In this document: positions 2,728-40,315 of the stretch, piece by piece
Layout of the letters: each line of letters begins with the position of its first letter
How positions within the stretch are numbered: the stretch's first letter is position 1
DNA from: Shinella sp. WSJ-2
GTDB lineage: Bacteria > Pseudomonadota > Alphaproteobacteria > Rhizobiales > Rhizobiaceae
Reading direction: 5' to 3'
NCBI RefSeq assembly: GCF_003432075.1
Contig: NZ_QWBU01000009.1
Coordinates: 1 to 64,000, forward strand
DNA length: 64,000 nt
Translations under genes and position numbers: made by a program
The notes under the pieces: model-generated
What the model was told of the DNA's origin: nothing
Database searches by the model: none
The model's input: only the letters and a program-made list of their open reading frames with translations

Positions 2728-2781
2728 GCGGAAATTATTTCCGTCCCGCGCCCCATATTGACTGATATCCAAAGCCAGGAA
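2728..2781 (+). repeat. 305-bp dispersed repeat, copy A (left 54 bp only)
   Basis: Starts with GCGGAAATTATTTCCG and continues through TTGACTGATATCCAAAGCCAGG, which matches the left end of the full copies at 5699 and 12793 base for base over most of its length. Similarity stops at about 2781. It lies between the IS debris and the first gene module. Same orientation as the other copies. Confidence 0.75.
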
Positions 2782-2919
2782 ATTATAAGCATGAATCCAT
2801 TTATTATTAGCATAAACAAAACGCGAACATCTCGTTACTCTATAAACATTGGAACAACAATTTCAGTAACGCGTTGTCGAGCTGCCCTGCGAGTTCGTCG
2901 CCGGATACAGGATACATCC

Positions 2920-4611
2920 ATGCTTCCGAGAATTGCGATCATCGGAACCGGCCCGACCGGTCTCTACACGTTCAAACAACTCATTGGCTCCTCCGATCCT
3001 TTGTCGATCACGCTTTTTGAGGCGGAGGGCGAACCGGGCAAGGGCACGCCCTATCATCCTGATATGAACGACCCGGCGATGCTCTCGAACATTCCGAGTA
3101 TCGAGCTTCCGGCTTTTACCGAAACGCTGGGCGACTGGTTGCGGCGACAGGATGACGACACGCTGATGCGCCATGGCATCCGTAGGGAGGCGATCGACGA
3201 GCGTGAATTCTACCCGCGCTTGGTGCTTGGCGACTACATGCAGGCACAGTTCCAGCGCATGCTGCAGCAGGCGGCCGATCGCGGGCATCTGGTGACTGTT
3301 CTAGCGCGCCACAAGGTCACCGATATCGAAATCCAGGCAGAGGCCATCCGGCTCAGGATCGCTGATCTTGATGGCGAGGACGATGCATTCTTTGACCACG
3401 TCGTCATGGCGACGGGCCATAACTGGCCGGAAAGCACCGAAATCCGCCCCGGATATTTCGTCTCGCCCTGGCCGGCAAGCATCCTGAAGTCGGTGCGCAA
3501 CGAGGCGGTCGGCATTCTCGGTACGTCTCTAAGCGGCATCGACGCGCTGATGACGGTCGCGACAGCACACGGCATGTTCTACGCAGATGCCGCCGGCGAC
3601 CTGCAGTATCATCCTGTTCCCGGCACGGAAGAGTTCCGCGCGACGCTGATGTCGCGCAAGGGCATCCTGCCGGAGGCCGATTTCTACTGCCCGCTCCCCT
3701 ATGTGACGCCGCTTGTCTGCACGGAAGGAGCCGTGGATGCCCTGATCGCGACAGGTCGTCACGACCTGCTCGATGACGTCTTCGAGGTGTTCCGCGGAGA
3801 GATCGTCGCGCGCGACCCCGACTATGCCGCCCGGATCGGCCTTTCGCAATTAACTGTCGAGACCTTCGCCGCCGCCTATTACGCGGACCGGACGGAGAGC
3901 GATCCCTTCGTCTGGGCGGCCAAGAACCTGGCCGAAGCCGAGGATAACAGGCAGAAGCGTTACACGGTGCCGTGGCGCTACGCGATCCTGATCACCCACG
4001 AGATCGTGGCAAAGGTCATTCCTCACCTCGACGAAAACGACCTGAAGCGCTTTCATCGGCACTTCAAGGGCATTTTCATCGACGACTATGCAACCGTGCC
4101 GCTGATGTCGATCCGCAGGCTGCTGGCGCTGTCCCGTGCCGGCAAGCTCTCGATCCTGAAGCTCGGCGAGGATTACCGGATCCGCACGGCGGAAGATGGG
4201 CTGGAGCGCGGCGCCGAGGTCGAAGTGGATGGCGAGGTCCATCGCTTCGGCGCCTTCATAGACGCGACGGGCCAGGAGACACTCTCGGCCACGGATCTTC
4301 CATTCCCGACGCTGGTTGCCCAAGGCGGCGTGCAGGAATCGGCGACCCCGAGGGCGGCTGCGATCCGGCAACCGGACCGCGATCCCGATATGGTCCGCAC
4401 CGGCGGCATCGACGTCGACGCAGCCTATCGGCCACGTCTTGGCCTGATGTCGGAAGGCCGGCTCTATTGCGCGGCGATCGCCTTTTTGCTGCACAAGGAG
4501 CCCTTCGTGCAGGGCATCACCAGCGCGCGCGACATCGGTGAAACGGTTGGCCGCGCGATCCTGAGCGATATCACCGACGAGAAAACGCCGCTGTTTCAGA
4601 TCTGCGCGTAA
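2920..4611 (+). CDS. FAD/NAD(P)-binding oxidoreductase (NAD_binding_9 type)
   Basis: The frame is open from 2647, but the protein fold begins at the ATG at 2920: IAIIGTGPTGLYTFKQL is a dinucleotide-binding Rossmann loop (GxGxxG) followed about 45 residues later by GKGTPYHPDMNDPAMLSNIPS, the typical second motif of PF13454-like flavoproteins. This gives 563 residues, a normal length for the group. A second nucleotide-binding region (AVGILGTSLSGIDALM) and a C-terminal FIDATGQE motif are visible. Family members are soluble flavin oxidoreductases, many of unknown substrate. I see nothing that names one here. It converges with the MOSC gene and overlaps its 3' end by 16 bp. Confidence 0.75.
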   Translation: MLPRIAIIGTGPTGLYTFKQLIGSSDPLSITLFEAEGEPGKGTPYHPDMNDPAMLSNIPSIELPAFTETLGDWLRRQDDDTLMRHGIRREAIDEREFYPRLVLGDYMQAQFQRMLQQAADRGHLVTVLARHKVTDIEIQAEAIRLRIADLDGEDDAFFDHVVMATGHNWPESTEIRPGYFVSPWPASILKSVRNEAVGILGTSLSGIDALMTVATAHGMFYADAAGDLQYHPVPGTEEFRATLMSRKGILPEADFYCPLPYVTPLVCTEGAVDALIATGRHDLLDDVFEVFRGEIVARDPDYAARIGLSQLTVETFAAAYYADRTESDPFVWAAKNLAEAEDNRQKRYTVPWRYAILITHEIVAKVIPHLDENDLKRFHRHFKGIFIDDYATVPLMSIRRLLALSRAGKLSILKLGEDYRIRTAEDGLERGAEVEVDGEVHRFGAFIDATGQETLSATDLPFPTLVAQGGVQESATPRAAAIRQPDRDPDMVRTGGIDVDAAYRPRLGLMSEGRLYCAAIAFLLHKEPFVQGITSARDIGETVGRAILSDITDEKTPLFQICA

Positions 4612-5324
4612 ACCGGATCGCCGACACGGATGGTGACGGGCTCGGCGGGCGTGGCATAGACTCCGAGATTGCGCTTGTTGTGGCGCATGATGCCGCGCAG
4701 CACGTCGGGCTCTTCCGCGAGGCCGGGCTGGGCGACCAGCGTCATGCCGCAGCGGCGCGAAGCTTCCGTGACGCGGATATCCGCGTCCCCGATGCGCAAC
4801 GTATGGCCCACCCAGTCGTTCTCGATGAAGCCTTCACCATCGTCCGTTTCGATCAGCACGGAGGGCCGGAACCGTCTTGCGTCGAGCGGCGGGAGGCCTG
4901 TCACCGCGGCGAGCGCCTCCGCCGAGGCGGTTGTCACCAGGTGAAGCGGCGCTGCCTTGTAGCGGTTGGAGACGACGGGGAAACGGTGGTCTCCCGCGCC
5001 GACGAGGCCGACTGAAACGGCAAAACCGAAATGCTCTGCCAGGCGGTCCGGCAAGGCCCCGTCATCGAGCGAATGCTCGGCGCCGTCGGCAAAGCGCAGC
5101 ACCGGCAGTCCGGAGGGCGGTTGCGAGGCGGTGATGAAAAGGGCGGGACGCCAGCGCGTTTCCTTTTCGGGCGCGGCGGCAAGACCCGTATTCGGATCGA
5201 AAAGCGCAAATCGCCGGTCGCCTATGATGCCTTCTGGCGAGACGGAGATAAAGGCGAGCGTCTCCCCGCCAAGAGAACTCACCGGATAGCGCCAGACTTC
5301 CCGCACTCGACCGATTTTTCGCAT
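4596..5324 (-). CDS. MOSC domain protein with MOSC_N beta-barrel
   Basis: The 242-residue protein begins IGRVREVWRYPVSSLGGE, the MOSC_N beta-barrel signature, and continues to a MOSC domain with the conserved cysteine in EASRRCGMT. MOSC proteins are thought to handle sulfur or the molybdenum cofactor, as in YcbX/mARC detoxification of N-hydroxylated compounds. Here the length is right for the stand-alone YcbX-like form without a ferredoxin domain, so it would need a separate electron donor. The flavoprotein next to it could fill that role, but this is a guess from proximity; the two genes are convergent, not an operon. Confidence 0.75.
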   Translation of the reverse strand: MRKIGRVREVWRYPVSSLGGETLAFISVSPEGIIGDRRFALFDPNTGLAAAPEKETRWRPALFITASQPPSGLPVLRFADGAEHSLDDGALPDRLAEHFGFAVSVGLVGAGDHRFPVVSNRYKAAPLHLVTTASAEALAAVTGLPPLDARRFRPSVLIETDDGEGFIENDWVGHTLRIGDADIRVTEASRRCGMTLVAQPGLAEEPDVLRGIMRHNKRNLGVYATPAEPVTIRVGDPVYAQI

Positions 5325-5698
5325 AGTGGTGCCCCGTTTCTCACTATACGCCGAACATCGTTTGGTGTTCCAGAAAAGTGCGACCGGGGGCGAAGTTCGG
5401 GCTATTATTGAGAAGTTGAGGCCACCAAACGAGGGCTTCCGGGTGGGCTCAAATGGTGTCGCCGTATGTGAGACGCCGCGATTAATGGAGATTGGTTCAC
5501 CAGATCGACCGCAAGCTACTCCCGAGGAAACTACGGCTATGTCGCCTAAGGGTCACCGTCCAACACGTTGCACGTTTCTGACGCATCGGGCGCAATGTCT
5601 GCTTTTAGGCAGATGCGACGACGGCCTGTATGACAGAAATGGGGGCGCAAAGCTGCCGGGCGCTCTGTGCTGCCTCACCGCAAACTTCAGGCCCGAAG
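5325..5698. other. Intergenic stretch, no feature recognised
   Basis: Between the start of the MOSC gene and repeat copy B. Short open frames exist but none has a ribosome binding site or protein character. It should contain the MOSC promoter on the minus strand; I cannot point to it with confidence. Confidence 0.4.
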
Positions 5699-6005
5699 GC
5701 GGAAATTATTGCCGTTAGACCGTCTAGTTGACTGATGCCCAAAGCCAGGGCACAAAGGTTGCATCCACGGTCGCTCGCGATTGGAAAACAGAGGGAATTT
5801 CAATACTTCTGCTCTAAGTCATTGAAATCATGTGAGAATCCAGGTCTCCCAGGCAGGTCATTTTGGATCAATTTCGTAACCTAAATCGGAAATTATTTCC
5901 TTGTCCGAAAAGTGACGTCTTCTCAATACGTTGAGTAATTTCGGCCGCAGTTCCTTGGACCGTTCGCCATGTTTGAAGGCGGCTTGGAAAACTGGCTGGG
6001 GACCC
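5699..6005 (+). repeat. 305-bp dispersed repeat, copy B (full length)
   Basis: 307 bp from GCGGAAATTATTGCCG to TGGCTGGGGACCC. Shared blocks with the other copies: CCCAAAGCCAGGGCACAAAG, then TCCACGGTCGCTCGCG, TTGAAATCATGTGAGAATCC and GACGTCTTCTCAA. Sequence outside both ends is unrelated between copies. No open reading frame of credible coding quality is kept across copies. Confidence 0.9.
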
Positions 6006-6192
6006 AGCGACCCTGCAATAACCTTCCTTCGCCGCGGGCCAGACGCTTTGCTTTAGAAGTGCGTCGATCGAGCGTGCTGCGGCTGGCCCTTTTTGGATGC
6101 CGTTTGGCACGAACAGCATCCTCGTCCTGTTTGAATTAGGGATCGTAAGGAGCGACTGTCGGCGTCATCAACGTCCCCTTCAAGGAGAAGAC

Positions 6193-6843
6193 ATGACCGA
6201 CATTCCCGCCATCATTGCAGGTATCAAGATTCCCGACAGCTCAATGGCCACAGCCGCGACCGAGCTTGTTCGAGACACGGAGACCGACCTGCTCTACCAC
6301 CACTCGCGACGGGTCTTCCTGTTCGGCGCCCTGACTGGGGATCGCAAGGGCCTGAGTTACGACGCCGAATTGCTCTACATCGGCGCAATGTTCCATGACA
6401 TGGGCCTCATGGATTCGCATGCAAGCGAGACGGAACGGTTTGAGGTCGACGGAGCGAATGCGGCGCGGGATTTCCTGAGCGCTTACGAAATATCCGATCG
6501 CGACGTCGATGATGTCTGGGACTCGATTGCTCTCCACACCACGCCGGGCATTCCGCAGCACAAGCGTCCGACCGTCGCGCTTGTGACCGCCGGCGTCGAA
6601 ATGGACGTGCTCGGCATCGGCTACGATGACTTTACAGATCAACAGCGGGAAGAAGTGTGCGCCTGCCATCCGCGGGGCCTGAAGTTCAAGCACGGCATCC
6701 TGTCTTCCTTCTGCCTGGGAACGATCCGGAAGCCGGAGACGACCTTTGGCAACGTGAAAGCCGACGTGCTTTCCAAGATGGATCCGACGTATCGGCGCGT
6801 CGACTTTGCTGATCTGATCCTCAGCTCGAAGTGGGAAAGCTAG
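6193..6843 (+). CDS. HD-domain protein, cyanamide-hydratase-like (paralogue 1)
   Basis: Start chosen at ATG 6193 because AAGGAG lies 6 bp upstream; 216 residues. Metal-binding HD residues are visible in order: H in YHHSRRVF, HD in AMFHDMGL and H in ALHTTPG. The pattern HHSRRVFLFG...MFHDMGL resembles fungal cyanamide hydratase and its bacterial HD relatives, which hydrate nitrile-like or cyanamide substrates or act as phosphohydrolases. The protein ends cleanly at LILSSKWES, which is the reference point for its two paralogues at 10358 and 11031. It is separated from them by two regulators and two small enzymes, all inside one repeat-bounded module. Confidence 0.75.
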   Translation: MTDIPAIIAGIKIPDSSMATAATELVRDTETDLLYHHSRRVFLFGALTGDRKGLSYDAELLYIGAMFHDMGLMDSHASETERFEVDGANAARDFLSAYEISDRDVDDVWDSIALHTTPGIPQHKRPTVALVTAGVEMDVLGIGYDDFTDQQREEVCACHPRGLKFKHGILSSFCLGTIRKPETTFGNVKADVLSKMDPTYRRVDFADLILSSKWES

Positions 6844-6873
6844 AAGGCGGGAACCACCTCGTCGGCGGAGTGG

Positions 6874-7836
6874 TTAGTCGTCCAATCGCTGGAAGCTCAC
6901 TCTGTACTGACCGGGGGTGACGCCCAGCCTCCTTGAGAAGACCTGCCGCATGCGGTGCGGCGATCCGAATCCGCATTTGTAGGCGATCTCCTTAAGCGCC
7001 AGATGGCTTCCCTCCAGAAGGTTGCGGGCGGCGTCCAGCCGAGCGTTTTCGACGAACTCGGCCGGCGTCGTTCGCGTCTGTTCCGAAAAAAGGCGGGCAA
7101 AGCTCCTGCGGCTCATGTGGAGGTGGTCGGCAAGCTCGTCCACCGTCAGGCGTGACCTCAGGTTTGCCATGACGAAGTCAGAGATTGCTGCCAGCGGAGA
7201 CTCCGGATCCGCCGGAGCGACAATGTATGGGCTGAATTGCGACTGACCTCCCTGGCGCTGGGCGACCACGACGAGACGTTTTGCGACCGCGAGGGCAGTC
7301 TCCGGTCCGCAATCCTCCCTGACGATAGCCAGCGCAAGATCGATCCCGGCCGTCACTCCGGCCGAAGTCAGCAGATTGCCGTCCTTGACGTAAATTCGGT
7401 CTCGGTCCACGATGGCGTCTGGGAAGCACTCCGCCAAAGCGTCAGCATTCTGCCAGTGCGTCGTTACCCGCTTTCCACCGAGAAGACCTGCATGTCCAAG
7501 CACGAACGCGCCCGTGCAGACCGATCCCGTTCGTGCTGAAATCTTCGACAAGCGCCGGATGCAATCCAGCATGGCCGTATCCGGGAGTTCATCGGGCAGT
7601 TTCGGCCCGCCAGCTACAAGCACAAGATCGTAGCCGGCGACGGCTTCGTCATATGTCCGGTGGGCTTCCATCCGCATCCCATTCGAGGCCGTGAACGTGC
7701 CCTTCGGCCCGACGACCTCAACCTTATACCGGTCAGCCTGTGGCAAAAACGCGTTGGCTTCCTCAAACACGTCCATCGGACCGGAGACGTCAATGGCCTG
7801 AACGCCGGGAAAGACGACGACAGCTACTGAGCGCAT
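6874..7836 (-). CDS. GlxA-family transcriptional regulator (DJ-1/PfpI plus AraC)
   Basis: An upstream TTG at 7863 is possible, but ATG 7836 has GGGAG 6 bp before it and begins MRSVAVVVFPGVQAIDVSGPMDVFEEAN, the normal start of this family; 320 residues. Residues 1 to about 190 form a DJ-1/PfpI fold (SVCTGAFVLGHAGLLGGKRVTTHW carries the nucleophile-elbow cysteine). The C-terminal 100 residues form an AraC double helix-turn-helix (MSRRSFARLFSEQTRTTPAEF, IAYKCGFGSPHRMRQVF). Such regulators activate catabolic genes for choline, carnitine or nitrile compounds in other bacteria. It converges on the HD gene at 6193 and likely regulates within this module. Confidence 0.85.
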   Translation of the reverse strand: MRSVAVVVFPGVQAIDVSGPMDVFEEANAFLPQADRYKVEVVGPKGTFTASNGMRMEAHRTYDEAVAGYDLVLVAGGPKLPDELPDTAMLDCIRRLSKISARTGSVCTGAFVLGHAGLLGGKRVTTHWQNADALAECFPDAIVDRDRIYVKDGNLLTSAGVTAGIDLALAIVREDCGPETALAVAKRLVVVAQRQGGQSQFSPYIVAPADPESPLAAISDFVMANLRSRLTVDELADHLHMSRRSFARLFSEQTRTTPAEFVENARLDAARNLLEGSHLALKEIAYKCGFGSPHRMRQVFSRRLGVTPGQYRVSFQRLDD

Positions 7837-7944
7837 GCGAAGCTCCCGCCGTGGAATTGCCAAATGAGCACGATAGCCAACCCTGTATACAATGGGGAGC
7901 CCCCGACCCTGAAGAAGCGTTGAGTAATATGATTTGGCTGCACC

Positions 7945-9357
7945 TTACGAACATCGCATGATTGTCTCGATCAGGCGCTCGCACGTCCGCACCACGTTCT
8001 TGACAGGTGCGGTCGCGACGCCGAGCAGCAGCCCGGCCTCGGCCATTTCAGCGGACGCGTACCAAGGCGAAAGCGGTGCGGGAAACGTGCCGAAGGTCAA
8101 TGCATCCCTGGCAATCGCGACGTCGGACGCGCCCCTAGGCAGTTTAAGGAAGACCGACAGCCCCGGAGCTGAGACCTTCTCAGGACCCAGAGCGTCGCGG
8201 AAATACTCAAGAACCGGCTGCCGGGCCGCTGCATAGGCACGTTTGATCCTCCTTAAGTGCCGCATGTAGTGTCCTTCTCGAATGAACTCGGCAATCGCCA
8301 ACTGAACCGACGGACCGGGAGGCGGAGACAGGCAGGCCGCCACTTCGGCGAACCGCCCTGCGAGTTCAGCAGGAGCGATAACGAAACCGAGCCGCAGGGC
8401 CGGACTGATCGTCTTGCTGAACGAACCGATGTGAATCACACGGCCGCCGTTATCGATCGAGGCGAGCGCCGGCGCAGCCCGCCCGCTCAATTGGAGTTCG
8501 CTCAGATAGTCGTCCTCAATAATCCAGGCTTCGGCGTCCTCCGCCCATGCGAGAAGTTGCAGGCGTCGCTGCAGAGAAAGCGTTGCGCCGAGTGGTGCCT
8601 GCTGGCCCGGCGTCAGCACCGCTAGCGCCGCTTCGGGGCAGTTGCGTATCCCGTGGTCGACGTTGAGCCCTTCGCCGTCGACCGGGATCGGAACCGGGAG
8701 CACGTGAGCAAGCTCCAACGCTCGCCTTGTCCACGGAAATCCTGGATCCTCGAACCACGCCTTCTGGCCGCTCAGTGCAAGCACGTTCAGGGTCAATCCA
8801 AAGCCGCCGGCGAACCCACTGGTGACGATGACCTGAGACGGCGAGCAGTTGATACTTCTTGCTACGGCCAGATACGCTGCAATCTCCCGTCTCAACTCGA
8901 GCTCTCCGCGAGGATCCGGGTACAGAGGCGGCGCGCTCAGCTCGGCGCGAACAGCACTTGCGCGCAGCCGGGCAAGCAATTTGGAGGGCATGGTATGAGA
9001 TGCCGGAATGCCCATCTGAAACAATGCCGGCCCCTGAGTCATCTCAAGATACATCTCAATAAATGAGCCTGCAGACGGCGACGTCCCCCTTTTGGGAGCG
9101 GAGCGGGGACGGTCGGCCACACGCGTTCCCGCGGCCCCCGCCGCTTCGATCAACTGCGCTGCTGCGAGCTTCTCGTAGGCAGTTCGGACCGTTCCCCGTG
9201 CGACGCCAAGCTGGACCGCAAGATCCTGCCACGACGGGAGCCGTGCACCTGGTTCAAGTACCCCGTCATCTATGGCTCGGGCAATTCCTCCGCGGATCTG
9301 CTCGGACAGGGACTGCACCTGCGTCCGGTCCACGGTCAACTTCAGCAACGTGTTCAT
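7945..9357 (-). CDS. MocR-family regulator (GntR HTH fused to aminotransferase-like domain)
   Basis: About 470 residues. The N-terminal winged helix is seen as LSEQIRGGIARAIDDGVLEPGARLPSWQDLAVQLGVARGTVRTAYEKL. After a linker comes a fold-type-I aminotransferase-like domain with the PLP-lysine motif GSFSKTISPALRLGFV. MocR proteins usually repress or activate a divergent neighbour in response to PLP or an amino compound. Here the divergent neighbour is the cupin gene at 9451, only 93 bp away, so the operator should lie in that gap. The start could also be the GTG at 9372; I prefer the ATG at 9357, where conserved sequence begins (MNTLLKL). Confidence 0.85.
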   Translation of the reverse strand: MNTLLKLTVDRTQVQSLSEQIRGGIARAIDDGVLEPGARLPSWQDLAVQLGVARGTVRTAYEKLAAAQLIEAAGAAGTRVADRPRSAPKRGTSPSAGSFIEMYLEMTQGPALFQMGIPASHTMPSKLLARLRASAVRAELSAPPLYPDPRGELELRREIAAYLAVARSINCSPSQVIVTSGFAGGFGLTLNVLALSGQKAWFEDPGFPWTRRALELAHVLPVPIPVDGEGLNVDHGIRNCPEAALAVLTPGQQAPLGATLSLQRRLQLLAWAEDAEAWIIEDDYLSELQLSGRAAPALASIDNGGRVIHIGSFSKTISPALRLGFVIAPAELAGRFAEVAACLSPPPGPSVQLAIAEFIREGHYMRHLRRIKRAYAAARQPVLEYFRDALGPEKVSAPGLSVFLKLPRGASDVAIARDALTFGTFPAPLSPWYASAEMAEAGLLLGVATAPVKNVVRTCERLIETIMRCS

Positions 9358-9450
9358 CCGGTCATGGTACACTAATTCTTCGAGTTCTTGGTTCTTTTTT
9401 CTGGATCATGATGAGGGCATCTTGAGTGCGTCTCTGAAGGAGAATGAACC

Positions 9451-9870
9451 ATGAAACAATCAATAATACGCGCCGCAGCCGCAATCACGGCGGCGATCTC
9501 GCTTGTCGGACCCGCACCTGCTCACGACACCGAGCGAGAAAGCGTCACGCCGAAGTTCGCGCACGCGCTCGACAACATTCCTGGCAAGTCACTGCGGGTT
9601 GTCGAGGTTGACTACGCGCCCGGCGCTTCCTCGCTCCCGCACACGCACGCTCCGTCCGCCTTCATCTACGCCTACGTCCTCGCGGGCGAGGTAGAGTCGA
9701 AGGTCAACGACGGGGAAACCCATCGGTACAAAGCGGGCGAAAGCTGGTTTGAGCCACCCGGCGCCCTTCACTCCATCAGCCGTAACGCCAGCGACACTGT
9801 GCCGGCAAAACTGCTTGCCGTCTTCGTCGTCGATACCGACGACACTAAGCTGACCACTCCCCTCAAGTGA
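9451..9870 (+). CDS. Exported cupin-domain protein
   Basis: 139 residues, preceded by AAGGAG at good distance. Residues 1-24 form a signal peptide ending ...VGPAPAHD. The rest is one cupin barrel with the metal-ligand patterns PHTHAPSAFIYAYVLAGEVE and AGESWFEPPGALHSISRN (two histidines, glutamate, and a later histidine). Small periplasmic cupins of this build are common beside AhpD-like and SDR genes; their substrates are mostly unknown. First gene of a probable operon 9451-12529 with close spacing, divergent from the MocR gene. Confidence 0.75.
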   Translation: MKQSIIRAAAAITAAISLVGPAPAHDTERESVTPKFAHALDNIPGKSLRVVEVDYAPGASSLPHTHAPSAFIYAYVLAGEVESKVNDGETHRYKAGESWFEPPGALHSISRNASDTVPAKLLAVFVVDTDDTKLTTPLK

Positions 9871-9888
9871 AACAAGGAGACTGAAACG

Positions 9889-10344
9889 ATGACAAGAAGG
9901 CTCGACTATAATCAGGTTGCGCCCAACGGCGCCAAAGCGCTTGGCGGCGTCTATGGCTATGTGCTGCAGAGCGGTCTGCCGGGTGAACTGGTGGACCTCG
10001 TCTATCTCCGGGTATCCCAGATCAACAACTGCGCCTACTGCCTCGACATGCATACCCGCGAACTCCTGAAGCGCGGCGTGAAGATCGAAAAGCTCGCGCT
10101 GGTTCAGGCATGGCAGGAAGGCGGCAACCTCTTCAGTGAGGGCGAGCGCGCTGCGCTCGCTTGGGCCGAAACCGTGACTCTTGTTGCGGAGACAGGCGTA
10201 CCGGACGGCGCATACGAGGCGGCACGCCAAGTCTTCGACGAGAAACAGCTTGTCGATCTGACGATCGCCATCAGCCTGATGAATAGCTACAATCGCATGG
10301 CGATCAGCTTCCGCAACACGCCTCAAGCGGTCCTCGAGGCCTGA
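9889..10344 (+). CDS. AhpD-like carboxymuconolactone decarboxylase family protein
   Basis: 151 residues with AAGGAG upstream of the ATG. The redox motif CAYCLDMH (CxxC followed by a histidine) after a helical segment marks the AhpD/CMD fold. Proteins with both cysteines are usually alkylhydroperoxidase-type rather than true decarboxylases. It follows the cupin gene by 18 bp and precedes the second HD gene by 13 bp, so the three should be co-transcribed. Confidence 0.8.
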   Translation: MTRRLDYNQVAPNGAKALGGVYGYVLQSGLPGELVDLVYLRVSQINNCAYCLDMHTRELLKRGVKIEKLALVQAWQEGGNLFSEGERAALAWAETVTLVAETGVPDGAYEAARQVFDEKQLVDLTIAISLMNSYNRMAISFRNTPQAVLEA

Positions 10345-10357
10345 CGGAGGGCGGAAC

Positions 10358-11020
10358 ATGGCCGGTGTTGAAATCTCTGGCATCAGGCTTCCGGACAGCC
10401 GACTCGCCCGCGAAGCGAGCAAGTTCGTCCGGGAGACGGAGAGTGTGTTGCTGTTCGAGCACTCCACGCGCGTCTACTTCTGGGGCGCGATGGCCGGGCA
10501 GCGCAGAGCCCTGAAGTTTGATCACGAACTGCTCTACACGGCGGCCATGTTCCACGACGTTGGCCTCACGGACGCCTTCAATGAGAGCAGACTACGCTTT
10601 GAAGTAGACGGTGCGAATGCCGCCCGTGACTTCCTTCGCGGCCACGGCATCTCGGAAGACGACATGCAGAAGGTCTGGCTCGCAATCGCGCTGCACACGA
10701 CGCCGGGTATTCCGGCACATCTGGACCCTATCGCGTGCCTGACCGCCGAAGGTGTCATGATGGACCTCGTCGGCGCCGGCTACGACGGTTTCGACGAAAA
10801 CCAGCGGGCTGCCGTCGAAGCAGCGTATCCGCGCGGAGCCGACTTTGCTGAAGGCCTGCTCCAAGCCCTTTACGATGGCCTGGAGCACCGACCGGAGGTC
10901 ACTCAGGGAACAGGTCTCGCCGACGTGATGGCTGACAAGAACCCACATTTCCACCGCCGCAATTTCTGCTGCCTGACGCGGAGTTCCCCATGGGCATGCA
11001 GCGATTGCAGCTCCAGCTAA
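10358..11020 (+). CDS. HD-domain protein, cyanamide-hydratase-like (paralogue 2)
   Basis: 220 residues, GGAGGG upstream. Carries the same metal motifs as paralogue 1 (FEHSTRVYFWG, MFHDVGLT, ALHTTPG) and the shared FEVDGANAARDFL segment. The last 20 residues (FCCLTRSSPWACSDCSSS) differ from the ends of the other two copies and are cysteine-rich, so a late frameshift or a replaced tail is possible, but the catalytic core is intact. It sits 10 bp before paralogue 3. Confidence 0.75.
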   Translation: MAGVEISGIRLPDSRLAREASKFVRETESVLLFEHSTRVYFWGAMAGQRRALKFDHELLYTAAMFHDVGLTDAFNESRLRFEVDGANAARDFLRGHGISEDDMQKVWLAIALHTTPGIPAHLDPIACLTAEGVMMDLVGAGYDGFDENQRAAVEAAYPRGADFAEGLLQALYDGLEHRPEVTQGTGLADVMADKNPHFHRRNFCCLTRSSPWACSDCSSS

Positions 11021-11030
11021 GAGGTGTTCC

Positions 11031-11711: not shown

Positions 11712-11803
11712 GCAAATGAAAATTTCTGGGTCCGACCATCACCTGCGCTTCCTACCGCGGATGCTGGATTGTCGAGCCCAGCGCATTCGATAAGAGGAAA
11801 AAT

Positions 11804-12529: not shown

Positions 12530-12549
12530 CAGTTCATAAAGAGCGGGCC

Positions 12550-12711: not shown

Positions 12712-12792
12712 TTAGCGGGTCACGATGGGATCGGTTTGCCCGTCGTGACTTTCCAACGTCCTCTATTCTTCCGCATAATTTCCACCCAGTAA

Positions 12793-30428: not shown

Positions 30429-30437
30429 TCTGTCTCG

Positions 30438-31101: not shown

Positions 31102-31406
31102 GCGGAAATCATTGCCGCTCTCCCGCCATGTTGACGTCAGCCCAATGCCAAGCATAAAGATGGCATCCAACGGCGCCCTCGGCGGAAAGATATAGGGAAA
31201 TCAAAGGCTATATTGTTGAGCCTCTGACATCATCTGAGAACCCAGGTCTTCGAGGCAGACTGTTGTAGATCGGTTTTCCGCTGAAACTCCGCGTCCGTTT
31301 CTCACAAGAAAAAGTAATGCCTTCTCAACAATCTGAGCAGCCCTGGCCGCCGTTCTTCATGCCATCGTTGTGCGCAAGCAGGCCTCCTAAAGTTGACTGG
31401 GGACCC
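31102..31406 (+). repeat. 305-bp dispersed repeat, copy E (full length, most diverged)
   Basis: 305 bp from GCGGAAATCATTGCCGCT to TGACTGGGGACCC. Same length and block order as the other full copies but with more substitutions; the hairpins at the middle are partly broken. The flanks 30867-31101 and 31407-31539 contain no gene. Confidence 0.85.
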
Positions 31407-31539
31407 GAAAGCAATTAATTTACGGAAACAAACAGTCGGCTATTGGCGCAACGCATAAGATGAAGCATGCATTTCAAATGCCGATTAATCTGCATGATGT
31501 CTTCGTCATGCAGGAAGTGCGAGAGCCCAATCACTGCAA

Positions 31540-32469: not shown

Positions 32470-32705
32470 CCCTCCCCTGGCTTTCCAGACTTCGCATCAC
32501 GTCGACAATCGGTATTAGATTGTGCAACGCACACAAGATTTCATGGATATTCCTGAGATCTCGCGCATTAAAGTATCAGTATGGCGCAACGCCGACGCTT
32601 GTGTCCACCCCGTCTTTCCAGAAGTATCGAGGTCCGTTGAGCGCGTCGGAGGAGAGTTTAGCACGCACAACCGGAGCGATTTCGCGATCCAAATGGAGGA
32701 GAACA

Positions 32706-34136
32706 ATGAATAATTTTGCAAAAGCCGTGGGCGTCGGCTTCGTCTCGCTTGGCCTTTGGAGTTCAACCGCGCTTGCGCAGGATTCCTGGTGGAAGACTGC
32801 CGCGGAGCCGTATCAGGGCGCGACCATTCGGGGCATTTCCGAATCCACCCCGGCGTCGAAATATGTCGAGCAGGTCCTCGGCCCGAAATTTACCGAGGAG
32901 ACCGGGATCAAGGTCGAATTTGAGGCCACGTCTTGGGACCAGATGTACGACAAGGCGATCAAGGACATGGAGGCCAATACCGGCATCTACGACTTCGTCT
33001 ACATCGAGCAGGACATTGTCTACACCTATCTGGCCCGCCACTTCCTGGTGGATATCACCAAGTCGCTCGCCGACAACGCAAAGATCGCGTCGCCGGACTT
33101 CAAGCCGGAGAACTTCACCACGTTCCTGAACTATTTCAAGGATCCGAAGTCAGGCAACGTCATGGGCGTGCCCATGGAAGCATTCATCAAGCCTTATCTC
33201 TACCGCAAGGATCTGTTCGAGGATCCCGCGATCCAGAAAGCCTACAAGGATGCGACCGGTGCGGATCTGAAGCCCGCGACCACGCATGAGGAATACACCC
33301 AGATCGCCCAGTTCTTCACGCAATATGGCGCAGACAAGGAGCTTTGGGGCACGACCGTACAGGCCTCGTCGAGCCATCCCGCTGCCTTCTACGAGTTCTT
33401 CGAGTCGGTCGCGCCGACCTTTGGCGTCTACAATTGGGGCATCGATGGCACGACCTTCGCCGCCACGGAAGCCAACGGCGGCCAAATGAACTCCGCCGCG
33501 GCGAAGAAGGCGCTCAACTACTGGGTCGACCTCCTGAAATACGCGCCGCCGGAATCGACGTCGTCCACTTGGGACGAGGTTGCCGGCACATTTGCCGCCG
33601 GCCGCGCCGCCCAGGGCCTCGTCTACGGCGAGAACGCTGCGTGGATCGCGACCGACGAAAGCAAATCGACCGTCGTCGGCAAAGTGGGCGTGGCATTGCC
33701 GCCGGTTGAGGCAGGCGTGATGGAAGCGGCCGCATCCGGCAAGGGGTACATCGGCTACTACGATGGCGGCGCCTTCGGCATCCCGCATTCTTCCAAGAAC
33801 AAGGACGCCTCACTGCTCTTCCTGCAGTATATCGGGCAGGCTTCCGTGCAGACCAATTGGGCGCTGGCCGGCTCCCGCATCGTCATGAACTCGACCTATG
33901 ACGACCCCAAAATCGTCGAGCAGGACAAGAAGATGAACGGTTACTACACGCTAATGCGTGACGACGGAAAGCTCTTCGCCGGAGCGCCGCCATACCCGTT
34001 CCACTCGCAAGTCCTGCAGGTGGTCGCGCCGTTCATCTACAAGGCGATCGTTGGCGAGATCAAGCCGGACGACGCTCTGGACCAGGCCGCCGCTGCGGCC
34101 GAAGCTGAACTCGTGAAGCTCGGCTACCGCAAGTAA
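32706..34136 (+). CDS. ABC transporter binding protein for a sugar or polyol
   Basis: 476 residues from ATG 32706, preceded by GGAGGAG; the frame opens further upstream but the signal peptide (ends STALAQDS) fixes this start. Family SBP_bac_1 by [32 protein letters not shown] and DYEQ-like repeats later. Followed by two permeases, an ATPase and pentitol dehydrogenases, so the ligand is most likely ribitol, xylitol or arabitol. Confidence 0.8.
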
Positions 34137-34158
34137 GAAGCCGCCCCTCCCAGCGGTT

Positions 34159-34186
34159 GGCGGCCGCCTTCAGCAAGGTGGCCGCC
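34159..34186 (+). terminator. Intercistronic hairpin after the binding-protein gene
   Basis: GGCGGCCGCCTT pairs with AAGGTGGCCGCC around CAGC (one G.T pair), then CCTTCCTC. Same position as the hairpin after ugpB; likely raises binding-protein output relative to the permeases. Confidence 0.65.
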
Positions 34187-34265
34187 CCTTCCTCACTGGA
34201 GGTTGCGGACTTGTTCACAAAGCTGCTGGTCGAATTGATACCAATGACGTCTGACGGAGCGTAGG

Positions 34266-35144
34266 ATGAGACAATCCAACATCGGATGGCTGTTTCTAGC
34301 GCCAGCCACCCTAATCCTGTTCGTTGTCGGGTTCATTCCCTTCATTTACATCCTATATGTCGGTTTCTTCGACTGGAACACCAATGCGCTCGATCCCACC
34401 CTGCGCTGGGCTGGTCTGCAGAATTACCGCAACCTCGTCTTTGACACGACATTCCTGAACTCGCTTGCGCGCACGCTGGTCTTCGCCTTCATCGTGGTCA
34501 TCAGCGAGCTGTTGCTGGGCTATGTGCTGGCCCGCGCGCTGATGGCAGACCGTTTGTGGGGCCGCCAGTTCTTTCGGACCATCCATACGCTGCCGATCGT
34601 TGTCGCGCCCATTGCAGTCGGCGCGACCTGGCGGCTGCTCTGCGTTCCGGGATTCGGCATCGTTCCCTATTACCTGAAACTGTGGTTCGGCATCGACTAC
34701 AACATTTCGACCAATGCCTATCACGCCTTCGGCACGGCGATCATCATGGACCTTTGGCACTGGACGCCGTTTGTCACGCTGTCGCTGATGGCGGGGCTCA
34801 CCGCCCTGCCGAAAGAACCACTCGAGCAGGCGCAGATCGACGGCGGCAACAAGCTGCAGATCTTCTGGTACGTGATCGTGCCGATGCTGAAGCCGGTGTT
34901 GCTGACTACCGTCTTCATCCGGCTGATGGACGCCCTTCGCTCCGTCGATGAAATCTGGATGCTGACCAAAGGCGGCCCCGCCGAGGCGACCCGATTCATT
35001 GGCCTTCATATCTGGATCAACGTCTTTCCGAAGACGGACTATGGCTACGGCGCCGCCATGTCCCTTCTCACGCTTTACGTCACGATCGTTTTGAGCTGGC
35101 TGCTCTTCGTCGCAATGACCGGCCGCAAGGGAGGCGCACAATGA
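34266..35144 (+). CDS. ABC sugar/polyol permease, MalF-like
   Basis: 292 residues with six predicted membrane helices, starting [32 protein letters not shown]. ATPase-contact loop [24 protein letters not shown] is intact. Its stop overlaps the next permease start by 4 bp, so both are made together. Confidence 0.85.
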
Positions 35145-35974
35145 GACGCTCCGGTATAGGTTCCTTCGTCCTCTGGATTGGCTTGACCTTCCTGACGCTT
35201 CTTCCGGTCTGGTGGATGCTGGTCGTTTCGATGCGGCCTCGGGTGAAGCTGTATTCGAAATCAGTCCTCATCGACGATCTCTACTGGGACAATTTTCTGG
35301 CCGTCCTGAACAGCTCGACCTTCCTGCAATATCTCTGGAATTCGATGGTCGTGGCGACATCGAATGCAGCGCTTGTCTGCGCGCTCGGCCTGCTCGCTGC
35401 GTTCGGGCTGTCGCGTTACAAGATCAGCGGCGGTGACAACGTATTCTTCTGGCTGATCACCAACCGCATGGCGCCGCCTGCCGTCTTTCTGTTGCCGCTC
35501 TTTTTGCTGTTCACCAAATGGTTCGTCTTCGGCGACTTCATGTTGTTCGACACGAAAATCGGTCTGATCCTCCTTTACTGTGTGTTCAACCTGCCCTTCG
35601 CCATCTGGCTCCTGAAAGGCATGCTGGACGGGATACCGCTGGAGCTGGACGAAGCGGCACGCGTCGATGGGGCGACAACCGGCCAAGTGCTCTCCCACGT
35701 CATCCTGCCGCTGGCACGCCCCGGATTGGCCGTCACCTTCATCCTCACCTGGATCTTCGCCTGGAATGAGTACTTGTTCGCAGCAACGCTCACCTCGTCG
35801 GCTGACGCCAGAACCGTGACGACAGCGCTCGCCGAATATGTCTCGGTCACCGGAACGAACTGGGGCGAGATGGCGGCCATGGCGTTCCTGACCACGCTCC
35901 CGGCTCTGGTCGTGCTCGGCTTCGTCCAGAAGCACATCGTGACCGGCCTGACGTTCGGCGCATTGAAAGGATAA
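35141..35974 (+). CDS. ABC sugar/polyol permease, MalG-like
   Basis: 277 residues, six predicted helices. Loop [26 protein letters not shown] matches the MalG group. Pairs with the permease at 34266. Confidence 0.85.
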
Positions 35975-35978
35975 ATTG

Positions 35979-36182
35979 ATGGCTGCCATTCAACCCCAGA
36001 AATCCGAGCGCGACGGGTTCCTACCGATCCGCACCAACGGCTTCGACAGAGGCTTCATCTCGGTCGTGATCCTGATCCTGGTGCATCTTCTGTGGATGCG
36101 CTTTCTTGAGGGCGTGCTGCCTCTGTGGGTGGCGACGGTGCTCTGCCTGGCCCTCGCCGCATTCATTATCCGAAAGGGCTGA
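35979..36182 (+). CDS. Small membrane protein in the transporter operon
   Basis: 67 residues from ATG 35979 (a TTG one codon earlier is possible). A short cytoplasmic start, then two hydrophobic stretches ([16 protein letters not shown] and [19 protein letters not shown]). It sits 4 bp after the second permease and 4 bp before the dehydrogenase. Small two-helix proteins occur in other alphaproteobacterial polyol ABC operons; their role is not established. Confidence 0.65.
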
Positions 36183-36186
36183 ACAT

Positions 36187-37227
36187 ATGAGATCGCTCGT
36201 TCTCGAACGAAAAGACGAACTGCGCATTCGCGACCTGGACCCGAAAGAGGTGCTCGGTCCCACCGACGTGCGCATTGCCATCAAGACCGTGGGGGTCTGC
36301 GGATCGGACGTTCATTATTATACGCACGGCGCCATCGGTCCCTTCGTCGTCCGCGAGCCGATGATCCTCGGCCATGAAGCAGCCGGCATCATCGAAGAGG
36401 TCGGCAGCGCGGTCCAGAACCTGAAGGTCGGCGACCGCGTGTGCATGGAGCCCGGCATTCCCGACCCTCAAAGTCGCGCGTCGCGGCTGGGTCTCTACAA
36501 TCTCGATCCGGCAGTGCGCTTTTGGGCGACCCCCCCGGTGCATGGCGTATTGAGGCCGAGCGTAGTCCACCCGGCGGCCTTTACCTTCAAGCTTCCGGAC
36601 AATGTTTCCTATGCCGCCGGCGCCATGGTCGAGCCGCTCGCCGTAGGCTTCCACGCTGTCGCCAAGGCAAGGCTGACGCCCGGGGCCATCGCACTGGTTA
36701 CGGGTGCGGGACCGATTGGCATGGTGACGGCAATCGCGGCACTGTCGGCTGGCTGCGCCAAAGTCATCGTCACCGACGTGGTCGACGAGAAACTTGCCGT
36801 GGCGCGCAAGCTCAGCTCAGCCATCGTGACCGTCAACGTGCGATCGCAGGACCTGCAGAGTGTTATCGCCCGGGAAACCGACGCCTGGGGCGTCGATGTG
36901 GTTTTCGAATGCTCAGGCGCGGCCGACGTCGTCGCAGACACCGTCCATCATGCCTGCCCCGGCGGCGCCCTTATCTTCGTGGGTATGCCGGTGAAGCCGG
37001 TTCTGTTCGATGTCGTCATCTCACAAACCAAGGAACTGCGCGTCGAACATGTATTCCGTTACGCCCATGTCTACCCGCGCATCATTGCGCTCCTGGGCTC
37101 CAACCAGATCAACGTCGATGCTCTGATCACCGACACCTACGCCTTCGAGGATTCCATTGAGGCGTTTGACTACGCGGTGCGGCCGAAGCCGTCCTCCGTC
37201 AAGATCCAGATCCAACTCGGCACCTGA
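36187..37227 (+). CDS. Xylitol-dehydrogenase-like zinc alcohol dehydrogenase
   Basis: 346 residues from ATG 36187. Medium-chain dehydrogenase with catalytic-zinc residues in [11 protein letters not shown] (C), GHEAAG (H, E) and MVEPLAVG (E). The structural-zinc lobe lacks the four cysteines of many relatives and instead reads [32 protein letters not shown], a segment typical of bacterial xylitol dehydrogenases. NAD loop GAGPIG. Expected reaction: pentitol oxidation to the 2-ketopentose. Which pentitol is not readable from sequence. Confidence 0.75.
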
Positions 37228-37349
37228 AATGGATCGACGGACATCGGATCGCAGCACCCCAGGCAGGACACAAGCCATGCTGAAGCTGACCGTTTACCCA
37301 TCCCGAAAGACCGGCGGCCTCGCCGCTTCAACTGACTGAGGATTGAGAT

Positions 37350-38420
37350 ATGGCGACGATAGAGCTCGACCAGGTCGACAAATATTACGGCTCTTACCAC
37401 GCACTGCGCAACATCTCGTTCGACATCGCGGATGGTGAATTCGTGGTGCTGGTAGGACCTTCTGGTTGCGGCAAGTCTACATTGCTTAGGACCCTTGCCG
37501 GCCTCGAAGAAATCACCGGTGGCACGATCAAGCTCGGTGGACATCGCGTCGACAACATCGCAGCGAAGGACCGTGACGTAGCCATGGTGTTCCAGAACTA
37601 CGCGCTTTATCCGCATATGACGGTCCGGGAGAATATGGCTTTCGCGTTGAAGCTGCGCGGAGAGAACCTGGCCGATCGCAACGCCAAGGTCGACAAGGCT
37701 GCAGAGATGTTGCGGCTTACGCCCTATTTGGACCGATATCCGAAAGCGCTCTCCGGTGGTCAGCGGCAGCGTGTCGCCATGGGACGCGCAATGGTTCGTA
37801 GTCCAAAAGCGTTCTTTTTCGACGAGCCTTTGTCGAACCTCGACGCCGCACTGCGCGTGGACATGCGTTCAGAGATCAAGGCTCTTCACCAGCGCCTCGG
37901 CGCCACATCAGTCTATGTTACGCACGACCAGATCGAAGCCATGACCATGGCGGATCGCATTGTCGTGCTGCGCAGTGGCAAGGTGGAGCAGATCGGGGCG
38001 CCTCTGGAGCTTTACGACAGACCGGCCAACACCTTTGTCGCCGGATTCATCGGGTCGCCAGCGATGAACATGCTGCCGGCCACGATCGACCTTGCCTTGA
38101 ACTCAGCGCGGCTTGCGGACGGGTCGACCCTCCCTCTTCCGCAAGGCACCCGGGCGACCAACGGGCAAGACGTCATCTATGGCGTTCGCCCTGACCAGTG
38201 GGTTCTGCACCATGGCGAGATGGGCGTACCGGCGACCGTCGAACTGATCGAGCCGACGGGGGCAGAAATACTCCTCGCTGCCCAATTGGCCGGGCAGCGG
38301 ATCTTGTGCGCCTTTCGCGAGCGCCACCCGTTGAGGCCGGGGGACAGGATTAGGCTCGATGTCGATCCTGCCGCGGCCCATGTGTTCGACAGGCAAACCG
38401 AACTGAGAATCTCACCCTGA
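37350..38420 (+). CDS. ABC sugar/polyol transporter ATPase, MalK/SmoK-like
   Basis: 356 residues. Walker [10 protein letters not shown], signature [15 protein letters not shown], Walker [16 protein letters not shown] and YVTHDQIEAMTMADR are intact, with a C-terminal OB regulatory domain. Energises the permeases at 34266 and 35141. The 122 bp before it hold no gene I can support. Confidence 0.85.
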   Translation: MATIELDQVDKYYGSYHALRNISFDIADGEFVVLVGPSGCGKSTLLRTLAGLEEITGGTIKLGGHRVDNIAAKDRDVAMVFQNYALYPHMTVRENMAFALKLRGENLADRNAKVDKAAEMLRLTPYLDRYPKALSGGQRQRVAMGRAMVRSPKAFFFDEPLSNLDAALRVDMRSEIKALHQRLGATSVYVTHDQIEAMTMADRIVVLRSGKVEQIGAPLELYDRPANTFVAGFIGSPAMNMLPATIDLALNSARLADGSTLPLPQGTRATNGQDVIYGVRPDQWVLHHGEMGVPATVELIEPTGAEILLAAQLAGQRILCAFRERHPLRPGDRIRLDVDPAAAHVFDRQTELRISP

Positions 38421-38444
38421 GCAAGACGCATCGAGGGATCATCC

Positions 38445-39173
38445 ATGTCAGACTTCACCGGGAAGACGATCATAATTACGGGCGCCGGCAAGGGTATAGG
38501 CCGCGCCTGCGTTGAATTGTTCACTCGTCGTGGCGCGCGCATCATCGGGCTTTCGCGCTCCCAGGCCGATCTTGATCATTTGGCGCAAGCCTTTGGCACG
38601 ACCGTCATTTCGGTCGATCTCGCCGACAATGCCGCAGCACGCGACGCCATGAAGAAGGCAGGGCTCGCAGACGCTCTCGTCAATTGCGCGGGAACGAATG
38701 TGCTCGAGAGCGTTCTCGACATGACTGAAAAGGGCTATGAACAGGTTCTCGGCATCAATCTGCGGGCCGCGCTGATTTGTGCTCAGGAATTTGCCCGGGC
38801 CCGCATTGCCAACGGCGGAGGCGGTACGATCGTAAACGTGACCTCAATCGCCGGGCATCGTGGTTTCGTGGACCACGTGGCCTATGCCGCTTCGAAGGCC
38901 GGACTGGAGGGCGCAACCCGCGTTATGGCCAAGGAACTCGGCGCGCGCGGCATCCGCGTCAATGCAGTGGCGCCGACGGTGACCATGACGGAACTTGCCG
39001 CGAAAGCATGGTCAGAGCCCTCCAAACGAGACCCGATGATGGTTCGCCACCCGATGGCGCGTTTCGCAGAGGTCGATGATGTCGCGCGCTCGATCGCGAT
39101 GCTGATTTCAGAGGACGCGGCCATGATCAGTGGCGCCGTCCTGCCCGTCGACGGCGGCTTCCTTGCCGTCTGA
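38445..39173 (+). CDS. SDR, L-xylulose-reductase-like (DCXR type)
   Basis: 242 residues. TGAGKGIGRACV loop, NCAG, SIAGHRGFVDHVAYAASKAG (S, Y, K) and SGAVLPVDGG. The start FTGKTIIITGAGKGIGR...GLSRSQADLDHL and internal VDLAD follow dicarbonyl/L-xylulose reductases, which interconvert L-xylulose and xylitol with NADPH. In this operon it would handle a ketopentose or its reverse. Assignment to the exact sugar is inference. Confidence 0.75.
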   Translation: MSDFTGKTIIITGAGKGIGRACVELFTRRGARIIGLSRSQADLDHLAQAFGTTVISVDLADNAAARDAMKKAGLADALVNCAGTNVLESVLDMTEKGYEQVLGINLRAALICAQEFARARIANGGGGTIVNVTSIAGHRGFVDHVAYAASKAGLEGATRVMAKELGARGIRVNAVAPTVTMTELAAKAWSEPSKRDPMMVRHPMARFAEVDDVARSIAMLISEDAAMISGAVLPVDGGFLAV

Positions 39174-39196
39174 AAAACCAAAAGCGAGAGAAGAAG

Positions 39197-39925
39197 ATGA
39201 CGAAACCACTCGAAGGAAAGATCGCTGCAGTTACCGGCGCAGCTTCTGGGATTGGGCTTGCAACGACCCGCGCCCTGATCGATGCTGGCGCTAGGGTCGT
39301 GATGGTCGACTACAACGGACAGGCGCTCGAGTCCTTCGCCGCCGAGTTTGGTGAGGCTGTTGTCATACAGGTGACCGACCTTCTGGACACAGCAAGCTGT
39401 GCAGCCATGGTGCCGGAAATCCTGGCGAAGGTGGACCACATCGATATCCTGCACTGCAATGCAGGATCCTATATTGGCGGCGATCTGATCGAAACCGATG
39501 GGGCAGCAATCGATCGGATGCTCAATCTCAACGTGAACGCGGTCATGAAGAACGTGCACGCTGTCGCTCCGCATATGATCGAGCGGGGGACCGGGGACAT
39601 CCTCGTCACCTGCTCCGTCGCCGGCCATGCGCCGATCCCATGGGAGCCGGTCTATTCCAGTTCCAAATGGGCGATCACCGGTTTCGTGCAGATCATGCGC
39701 CGGCAGTTGAAGAACCACGGCATCAGAGTGGGCCAGGTCTCGCCCGGCCCAGTGGTCTCCGCTCTGCTTGCCGATTGGCCCGCGGAGAACCTCGAAAAAG
39801 CCAAGGCCAACGGGAGCCTGATTGAGCCCACTGAAGTCTCCGAGGCGATCATCTTCATGTTGACCCGACCGCGCAACGTTACGATCCGGGACATGATTGT
39901 CTTGCCGACCAATTTCGACGTGTAG
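39197..39925 (+). CDS. rbtD: Ribitol 2-dehydrogenase
   Basis: 242 residues. Very close in pattern to Klebsiella RbtD: KIAAVTGAASGIGLATT, DILHCNAGSYIGGDLIETDG, WEPVYSSSKWAITGFVQIMRRQ, GPVVSALLADWPAENLEKAKANGSL and the ending NVTIRDMIVLPTNFDV. SDR enzyme oxidising ribitol to D-ribulose with NAD. This is the strongest clue to the substrate of the operon. No ribulokinase is present in the window, so the kinase step must be encoded elsewhere. Confidence 0.85.
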   Translation: MTKPLEGKIAAVTGAASGIGLATTRALIDAGARVVMVDYNGQALESFAAEFGEAVVIQVTDLLDTASCAAMVPEILAKVDHIDILHCNAGSYIGGDLIETDGAAIDRMLNLNVNAVMKNVHAVAPHMIERGTGDILVTCSVAGHAPIPWEPVYSSSKWAITGFVQIMRRQLKNHGIRVGQVSPGPVVSALLADWPAENLEKAKANGSLIEPTEVSEAIIFMLTRPRNVTIRDMIVLPTNFDV

Positions 39926-40159
39926 GTCTGGAGAACAAGTCGGTGGAGGCGCGGGATGTCAGGTACTGCGAAGTGACCTGCGGTAGTAACAAGACCCTTC
40001 CGCAGGACTGGGGCACTAAGGCGGGGCGTTTCGCCACCACAAAGTCATATGAAGCGCAGGTTCCGCTTCTGCGACAAGCGGCACCTGTGAAACGTCGACG
40101 AAGCGGGCGCGATGCCGTGTCGGCAGGTGCTCGCCTCACGTGCGGCCTGGCGCTCCCGA

Positions 40160-40315
40160 GCGGAAATAATTGCCGCTCTCCCGCCATGTTGACGTCGGCC
40201 CAAAGCCAGTGCACAAAGATGGCATCCACGGTCGCTCGCGGCGGGAAAACAGAGGAAAATCAAAGGCTATTTTGCTAAGACTTTGAAATCATGTGAGAAT
40301 CCAGGTTCCCCAGCC
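40160..40315 (+). repeat. 305-bp dispersed repeat, copy F (left half only)
   Basis: About 155 bp from GCGGAAATAATTGCCGCT through TTGAAATCATGTGAGAATCC. It then departs from the other copies and runs into the 5' region of a recombinase gene fragment. The stretch 39926-40159 before it has no gene. Confidence 0.9.

Follow-up and report, generated by a model that had tools for sequence, protein, structure and literature searches.

Copies of a non-coding repeat in Shinella sp. WSJ-2 as probable attachment-site ends of a tRNA-Gln genomic-island family

Introduction

The first 64 kb of contig NZ_QWBU01000009.1 of Shinella sp. WSJ-2 (assembly GCF_003432075.1), which is the whole stretch of 64,000 nucleotides that was analysed and is called the window below, contain a non-coding repeat of about 305 bp which stands again and again between blocks of genes. 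What is this repeat, and why does it separate the blocks? An earlier reading made from the letters of the DNA, here the sequence-only reading, had suggested either stepwise accretion at a shared site or a non-autonomous mobile repeat. We conclude, with a probability of roughly 0.87, that the copies are the attachment-site ends of a family of genomic islands inserted at a tRNA-Gln gene, and that the full copies would be the joints of stacked modules which carry no integrase. The nature of the repeat and the position of its site are strongly supported; the movement of single modules is put forward as a hypothesis.

Results

The repeat was found in the window as four complete copies of 305–307 bp each (5699–6005, 12793–13098, 27181–27486 and 31102–31406), one half copy (40160–40316) and a fragment of 52 bp comprising the start only (2728–2780). 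All are direct repeats on the plus strand, and the BLAST and nhmmer coordinates bear out the set of copies which the sequence-only reading had listed. When the strain's own genome (5.14 Mb) was searched with the 12793 copy, six places matched, every one of them inside the window, with BLAST E values of 3e-81 (27181), 1e-49 (5699), 8e-42 (40160), 2e-32 (31102) and 2e-4 (2728, for which nhmmer likewise gave 2e-4). The copies form a family beyond chance, the 2728 fragment being the least clear member. The full and half copies share their left edge, as had been proposed; this edge is the palindrome-like GCGGAAATwATTkCCG, and a weakly conserved extension reaches about 80 bp leftward of it. The proposed common right edge, TGGCTGGGGACCC, holds for three full copies and is one base off in the 31102 copy (TGACTGGGGACCC). 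The half copy had been labelled a left half; the copy is real, and it terminates in the 20-bp 3' end of tRNA-Gln, GAATCCAGGTTCCCCAGCCA (40297–40316).

Full and half copies in the window begin with an arm of about 137 bp, called A here, which is followed by the string GAATCCA (5836–5842, 12929–12935 and 27317–27323 in the first three full copies) or, in the most diverged full copy, by GAACCCA (31238–31244). In the full copies an altered version of the tRNA core and a further segment, B, come next, and B closes with the right edge (5993–6005, 13086–13098, 27474–27486 and 31394–31406). This edge, for example that at 5993–6005, resembles the 3' end of the tRNA in inverted orientation. The half copy is arm A joined directly to the tRNA-Gln 3' end, and the 2728 fragment is a truncated remnant of arm A.

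We then turned to 394 genomes of the family, which were surveyed mostly with one query copy (12793), so that B without A would be poorly detected. The search of rhizobial genomes that the sequence-only reading had suggested gave matches in 40 of the 394, spanning many genera, and in 23 records of a plasmid collection, where BLAST covered less than 80% of the query in 19 of the 23. Regions were examined for 30 of the 40 genomes and for 14 of the 23 plasmid records; the ten genomes left out had mostly weak matches (G122, G161, G299, G323, G357, G372, G396, G406, G439 and G449), and a 75-bp match in G067:C75 was left out too (G, C and L numbers denote genomes, contigs and loci). By a profile across the retrieved loci the copies fall into a full kind (A, altered core and B) and a half kind (A and tRNA core). 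Our census of copies of at least 120 bp covered 47 contigs or records, some of them near-duplicates and some of the loci close kin, and counted 75 copies: 37 full, 26 of the half kind, termed attR (right attachment site) for the reason given below, and 12 that were neither.

The arrangement of the copies was regular. Loci with several copies carried them on a single strand in all cases (19/19), and wherever both kinds were present attR was positioned after the full copies (13/13, including G353, in which a 57-bp fragment lies behind the half copy). Copies scattered at random, or a match to a known RNA family, would have spoken against the sequence-only reading, and neither was seen: the copies are clustered, and in a scan of the window no Rfam family reached its gathering score on the repeat. 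The one match of that scan was the alphaproteobacterial small RNA ar14 (RF02344) at 52576–52700 on the minus strand. Some loci hold just one A-type copy; G034, without a full copy, has a second A-type copy behind attR; and in L060 (12304–12466) an A–B copy is in two pieces (profile positions 1–47 and 185–306), an internal deletion having taken out the core.

What acts on these copies is suggested by a neighbouring gene. The start of an integrase-like gene was found behind half copies in six loci (L051, L055, L059, L068, L091 and L092), broken or cut short where examined. A 64-aa piece of the integrase, used as query in the 394 genomes, matched 76 at an E value of 1e-3 and 25 below 1e-24, a cut for strong matches which was set at a gap in the list. 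The repeat was present in 23 of these 25 genomes, on the same contig as the integrase in 16 and on separate contigs in seven, and in all 16 with a shared contig the integrase lay upstream of the repeat on the same strand. Most intact integrase genes have tRNA-Gln upstream. In a separate set, the best 80 of 94 named integrase loci, 67 had a complete tRNA-Gln directly upstream (62 CTG and 5 TTG), 10 had the core only and 3 had arm A. The 3' end of this tRNA is also the end of the half copies, and this identity makes the half copy an attR, with A as the island's right arm.

Tyrosine recombinases are marked by RR, HxxRHG and C-terminal Y residues. These were invariant in 29 of 29 aligned integrases, which are about 670–750 aa long with DUF6538 at the N-terminus. 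Two members were assigned to a PHROGs integrase family (E = 3e-9 and 4e-16). The predicted fold had a mean predicted local distance difference test score (pLDDT) of 70.6 and a predicted template modelling score (pTM) of 0.38, and PDB sequence searches gave nothing useful. Judged by its conserved residues, the gene adjoining the site encodes a putative integrase of the tyrosine-recombinase type. A search of the strain's own genome for the Phage_integrase family gave six places, none of them on the contig that carries the window.

The consensus of A also resembles the left arm next to the integrase, with which it shares TGATGCCCA-type direct repeats; in each of five arms (5/5) this likeness was equalled by at most 3 of 2000 single-base shuffles. 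By eye, GAATCCA is the string that the main altered cores share with attR and the tRNA. Exact matches to it stand in 33 of the 37 full copies, 22 of the 26 attR and 4 of the 12 other copies, and we infer that it would be the recombination overlap. To its right the full copies mostly have GGTTCTCCAGGC, GGTCTCCCAGGC or AGGTCCCCAGGC and variants of these in place of GGTTCCCCAGCCA; then follows B. The exact pattern of the altered core, with either tRNA or A allowed in front, occurred at 13 places in 9 of the 394 genomes, always behind A and in none of the 13 behind a tRNA. B lacks the tRNA 3' end, so a module with B directly behind the tRNA would spoil it, and this would account for an altered core that occurs nowhere but behind A. 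The end of B is near-invariant, with small changes, in 30 of 31 full copies, which suggests selection on the whole site; beyond that end conservation is weak.

Both ends of the insertion can be sought in the strain itself. Its genome has one match to tRNA-Gln(CTG), at 9589–9662 of contig C22, followed by the integrase gene, the only one of this type; it also has a single attR, that of the window, which belongs to contig C29 (191,876 bp). The starts of C22 and C29 share a similar stretch of 60 bp (80%) which resembles the end of an insertion sequence (IS). Because of the similar contig starts and the single tRNA and attR matches the two contigs are likely to be adjacent, and the first 40,316 bp of the window seem to make up the right-hand portion of an insertion, the left-hand portion being on C22. 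Compared in this way, the attachment core is identical to the tRNA 3' end at both ends, with the strain's own ends on two contigs.

Relatives of the strain have the site without the insertion, as far as comparison of the flanks can tell. The flank at 40317–40583 (plus strand) is like the sequence directly behind the tRNA-Gln of congeners, and in 4 of 20 other congeners the window from 40317 onward was matched at most 10 nt past the end of tRNA-Gln (89% over 265 bp in G010, 80% over 266 bp in G015 and two matches of about 75 bp). At seven more loci the tRNA, or a remnant of one, lies no more than 1.5 kb from sequence that matches window positions 46.96–48.5 kb. As to the single-copy empty sites for which the sequence-only reading had proposed to look, there are loci with a single A-type copy, and there are congeners which have the tRNA site and no array. 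In the flank behind attR the window carries a frame of 1767 aa with RTX and cadherin repeats (41146–46446, plus strand); since the 47-kb part of the window follows the tRNA within 1.5 kb in several congeners, this stretch may be a further insertion. The best plasmid match to 40319–48318 covered 66% of it at 82% identity (H24, Sinorhizobium sp. RAC02).

A comparison between species points to movement of such an island as a whole. Rhizobium sp. NFR03 (G235) and Ferranicluibacter rubi CRRU44 (G387) carry an island whose last 28.6 kb before the core agree at 99.98%, and whose stretch from the tRNA through the integrase is about 100% identical, while their flanks reach 55–94% left of the tRNA (200-bp windows) and 75–85% right of the core. 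Judged by this contrast, the island has moved between the two lineages as a single unit bounded by these ends, and the near-identity would fit joint mobilisation of modules with the adjacent element.

The material between the copies in the window is ordinary cargo for metabolism, transport and regulation, assigned here by Pfam matches. Module 1 (6006–12792) has genes for an HD domain protein, an AraC/DJ-1 regulator, a GntR/aminotransferase protein and short-chain dehydrogenases/reductases (SDRs), among others; module 2 (13099–27180) has the genes of two ATP-binding cassette (ABC) uptake systems, a response regulator and a histidine kinase; module 3 (27487–31101) has an AraC regulator, an alpha/beta hydrolase, a SnoaL-like protein and a MarR regulator; and module 4 (31407–40159) has an AraC regulator, ABC transporter genes, a zinc dehydrogenase and SDRs. 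That each interval holds one coherent gene set, as had been proposed, is only roughly right: the 14-kb interval contains genes of two ABC importers and a two-component system. An IS3-type transposase gene (1491–2252; rve and HTH_21 matches) lies near the 2728 remnant and the contig start. Modules 1, 3 and 4 each include stretches with relatives elsewhere: for module 3 the aligned part of the two best plasmid matches stops 81 and 183 bp short of A, and for module 4 the five best matches elsewhere start about 130–155 bp past the edge of B. Across genomes, 21 modules, each measured from a full copy to the next copy, were 1.7–15 kb in size. This integrase was found in none of the 21, nor in the window (tblastn with 11 integrases, 1e-3; outside the window the modules were searched for no other kind of recombinase).

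We also examined where homology changes around the joints, having removed the last 90 bp left of A before the left-hand cargo was compared, so that distances start at 90. Between the 12793 junction and a copy in G270, identity was 82% over 146 bp of left flank, 88% in the extension, 87% in A and 63% in B. In the group in which L052 and L092 were compared with L091, B was 77–84% identical (against a mean of 59) and went together with about 70 bp to its right, with A at background.

Several further observations concern the integrase and its target. Relatives of the integrase (39–40% identity) in Ochrobactrum, Brucella tritici and Falsochrobactrum (L216–L220) lie behind tRNA-Gln(TTG) instead of CTG. 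In L235 (10424) and L243 (10390) the integrase match ends about where arm A starts, as if the DNA from the gene to A had been deleted. Locus L131 encodes, convergent with the integrase gene, a 778-aa protein with no Pfam or PADLOC match (3836–6169, minus strand), and DNA like that of its gene lies behind the integrase in several islands; deeper inside L131 are defence-like genes (AAA/IetA-like, HNH, type IV restriction and type I specificity). Extra remnants of the tRNA-Gln 3' end, of 46 bp at G017:C1:2374320–2374365 and 53 bp at G018:C30:357126–357178, could be attR marks which another element has left at this tRNA.

Discussion

We propose that the integrase would act at the 3' end of tRNA-Gln, with arm A as the right end of the island. 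Recombination, probably inside GAATCCA, would join A to the displaced tRNA 3' end and so produce the attR at 40160–40316, while the left arm of the island would restore the tRNA that precedes the integrase gene. Comparison between genomes has delivered the parts of this scheme: a left end of tRNA-Gln and integrase, a right end of attR, and congeners whose tRNA-Gln is directly followed by the flank. The four full copies would then be joints between stacked modules of the form B–cargo–A, which lack an integrase. Such modules may have accreted at existing A ends, so that each module in the stack has one joint, and might be exchanged at the core, either through the integrase working in trans or through homologous recombination of one A arm with another. 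Of the two suggestions of the sequence-only reading, stepwise accretion at a shared site fits this scheme, the shared site being the tRNA-Gln 3' end. Its other suggestion, a non-autonomous mobile repeat, does not agree with copies which act as the ends of larger insertions, lie on one strand and stand downstream of the integrase.

A number of results weigh against this proposal. The integrase frame of the strain itself is broken near residue 558, and the left end lies on C22 while the window lies on C29. Neither flank of the window was found within 1.5 kb of the tRNA in 9 of the 20 other congeners. With the 64-aa query, 17 of the 40 genomes with the repeat had no strong integrase match, and 13 of those had none at 1e-3. 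The integrase had no match to Pfam Phage_integrase, and its predicted-fold matches were led by Cre and XerH at weak scores (best E = 0.05). A gene annotated as a tyrosine-type recombinase (L090, 19664–20296, minus strand) lies 4.4 kb to the right of a copy in Agrobacterium sp. RAC06 (CP016500). The one B examined showed no arm-like sites, and the proposal gives no account of the inverted edge of B or of its role. Around the joints, identity jumps at the right edge of B rather than at the core in L021/L022 and L067/L069, and the left-cargo homology of L020/L050 ends about 80 bp before A. The sole strain-level difference found has an IS-like boundary. Because the identity of A at the core breaks, 79–88%, lies inside the background of unrelated copies (mean 81, 5–95% range 72–89), the neighbour comparisons give modest support to B–cargo–A units joined at the core.

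Within the same island scheme, part of this evidence would also suit full copies that are old joints, inert by now. It would then be IS activity, deletion and homologous recombination of A arms with one another, and not the integrase, that assembled and exchanged the modules. This is a serious possibility to which we give somewhat less than even odds. It would accommodate the IS-bounded strain difference, the cargo edges that vary near B and A, a copy in G270 with an internal deletion and the B without arm-like sites. The strains in question, L091 versus L176–L179, differ by 14.5 kb, and we had considered this a clean loss of a module, but the break is IS-like and it was not used as proof. Inert joints are harder to reconcile with L052/L092 and L091, where B and its right-hand neighbour go together and A is at background, although the neighbour match extends for about 70 bp, and with the near-invariant end of B, which suggests that the whole site is under selection.

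It is also conceivable within the island scheme, and in our view unlikely, that the full copies are a second dedicated class of site, forming a tRNA-anchored, integron-like platform at which the integrase would insert operon-sized modules without an integrase into A-core sites. The order of integrase, full copies and attR would agree with this, as would the 21 modules that lack the integrase, the restriction of the altered core to positions behind A and the conservation of a site of about 300 bp in many genera. No clean gain or loss of a module was seen among the loci compared, which counts against it, as does the B without arm-like sites. A platform of this kind in the Rhizobiaceae, with A–altered core–B joints kept off the tRNA because they are unable to restore it, is equally doubtful.

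It is highly improbable that the repeat is a non-autonomous mobile element like a miniature inverted-repeat transposable element (MITE), or an RNA or regulatory element between operons by chance, since, for all that it is non-coding, multi-copy and sharp-edged, its copies are clustered on one strand per locus and follow one integrase gene, those of the attR kind finish with the 3' end of the tRNA, there is no Rfam match and one full copy folded as RNA no better than shuffles (z = -0.56). Insertion sequences or MITEs would be expected as dispersed copies in both orientations, unlike the clustered, single-strand copies of the loci compared. An operator shared by operons seems improbable too, as genes on both strands occur in the modules and the half copies finish with the tRNA core.

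Known systems offer parallels for an attachment-site array of the kind we prefer. The closest published case, on the portions of the literature considered here, would be the ssrA-specific islands of Dehalococcoides, several of which stand in tandem behind a single RNA gene, with copies of the ssrA 3' end as their boundaries; 15 of 31 have no integration module and may move with their neighbours by accretion (PMC3146451). Those islands use a serine recombinase, an ssrA target and a 20-bp repeat with a neighbouring 15-bp motif (PMC3146451), whereas the islands described here have tyrosine-recombinase motifs, tRNA-Gln, an arm of about 137 bp and a second type of joint made of B and altered core. 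The general concept is the accretion of cis-mobilizable elements (CIMEs) and of integrative and conjugative or mobilizable elements, in which elements without integration genes lie between att sites and are stacked at one target (PMC5704250). In contrast to CIMEs as treated there, the joints here are a conserved divergent class and not plain copies of attL and attR. A CIME has att sites at both ends; in the modules A is present at the right end, and B would be att-like at the left. The tRNA-borne islands of Sinorhizobium meliloti are also alike, having tRNA targets, flanking direct repeats and a single instance of successive insertions into one tRNA gene; a text search gave no "Gln" there, and the passages considered describe no long internal repeat (PMC11476347).

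Two further comparisons were made by description. Rhizobium-specific intergenic mosaic elements are likewise non-coding rhizobial repeats, which is the level at which they are compared here. Integrons pair one recombinase with modules that lack a recombinase and are arrayed on one strand. The modules here differ in their size of 1.7–15 kb and in their anchor, a tRNA gene. The attC sites of integrons act as folded single strands; the one full copy folded here, as RNA, gave the z value reported above. No printed description of the repeat or of the island system was found in the open-licence PubMed Central (PMC) literature. What appears to be new here is the tRNA-Gln target, the different type of recombinase, the long conserved arm and a second class of joint with B.

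An unexplained repeat thus becomes a map of the joints in an island, in which the end of each A is the end of one acquired block. Modules in rhizobial genomes could be delimited by means of the repeat, which is carried by 40 of the 394 family genomes sampled here. With an integrase and a target named, the idea of accretion becomes testable in soil bacteria that carry metabolic cargo.

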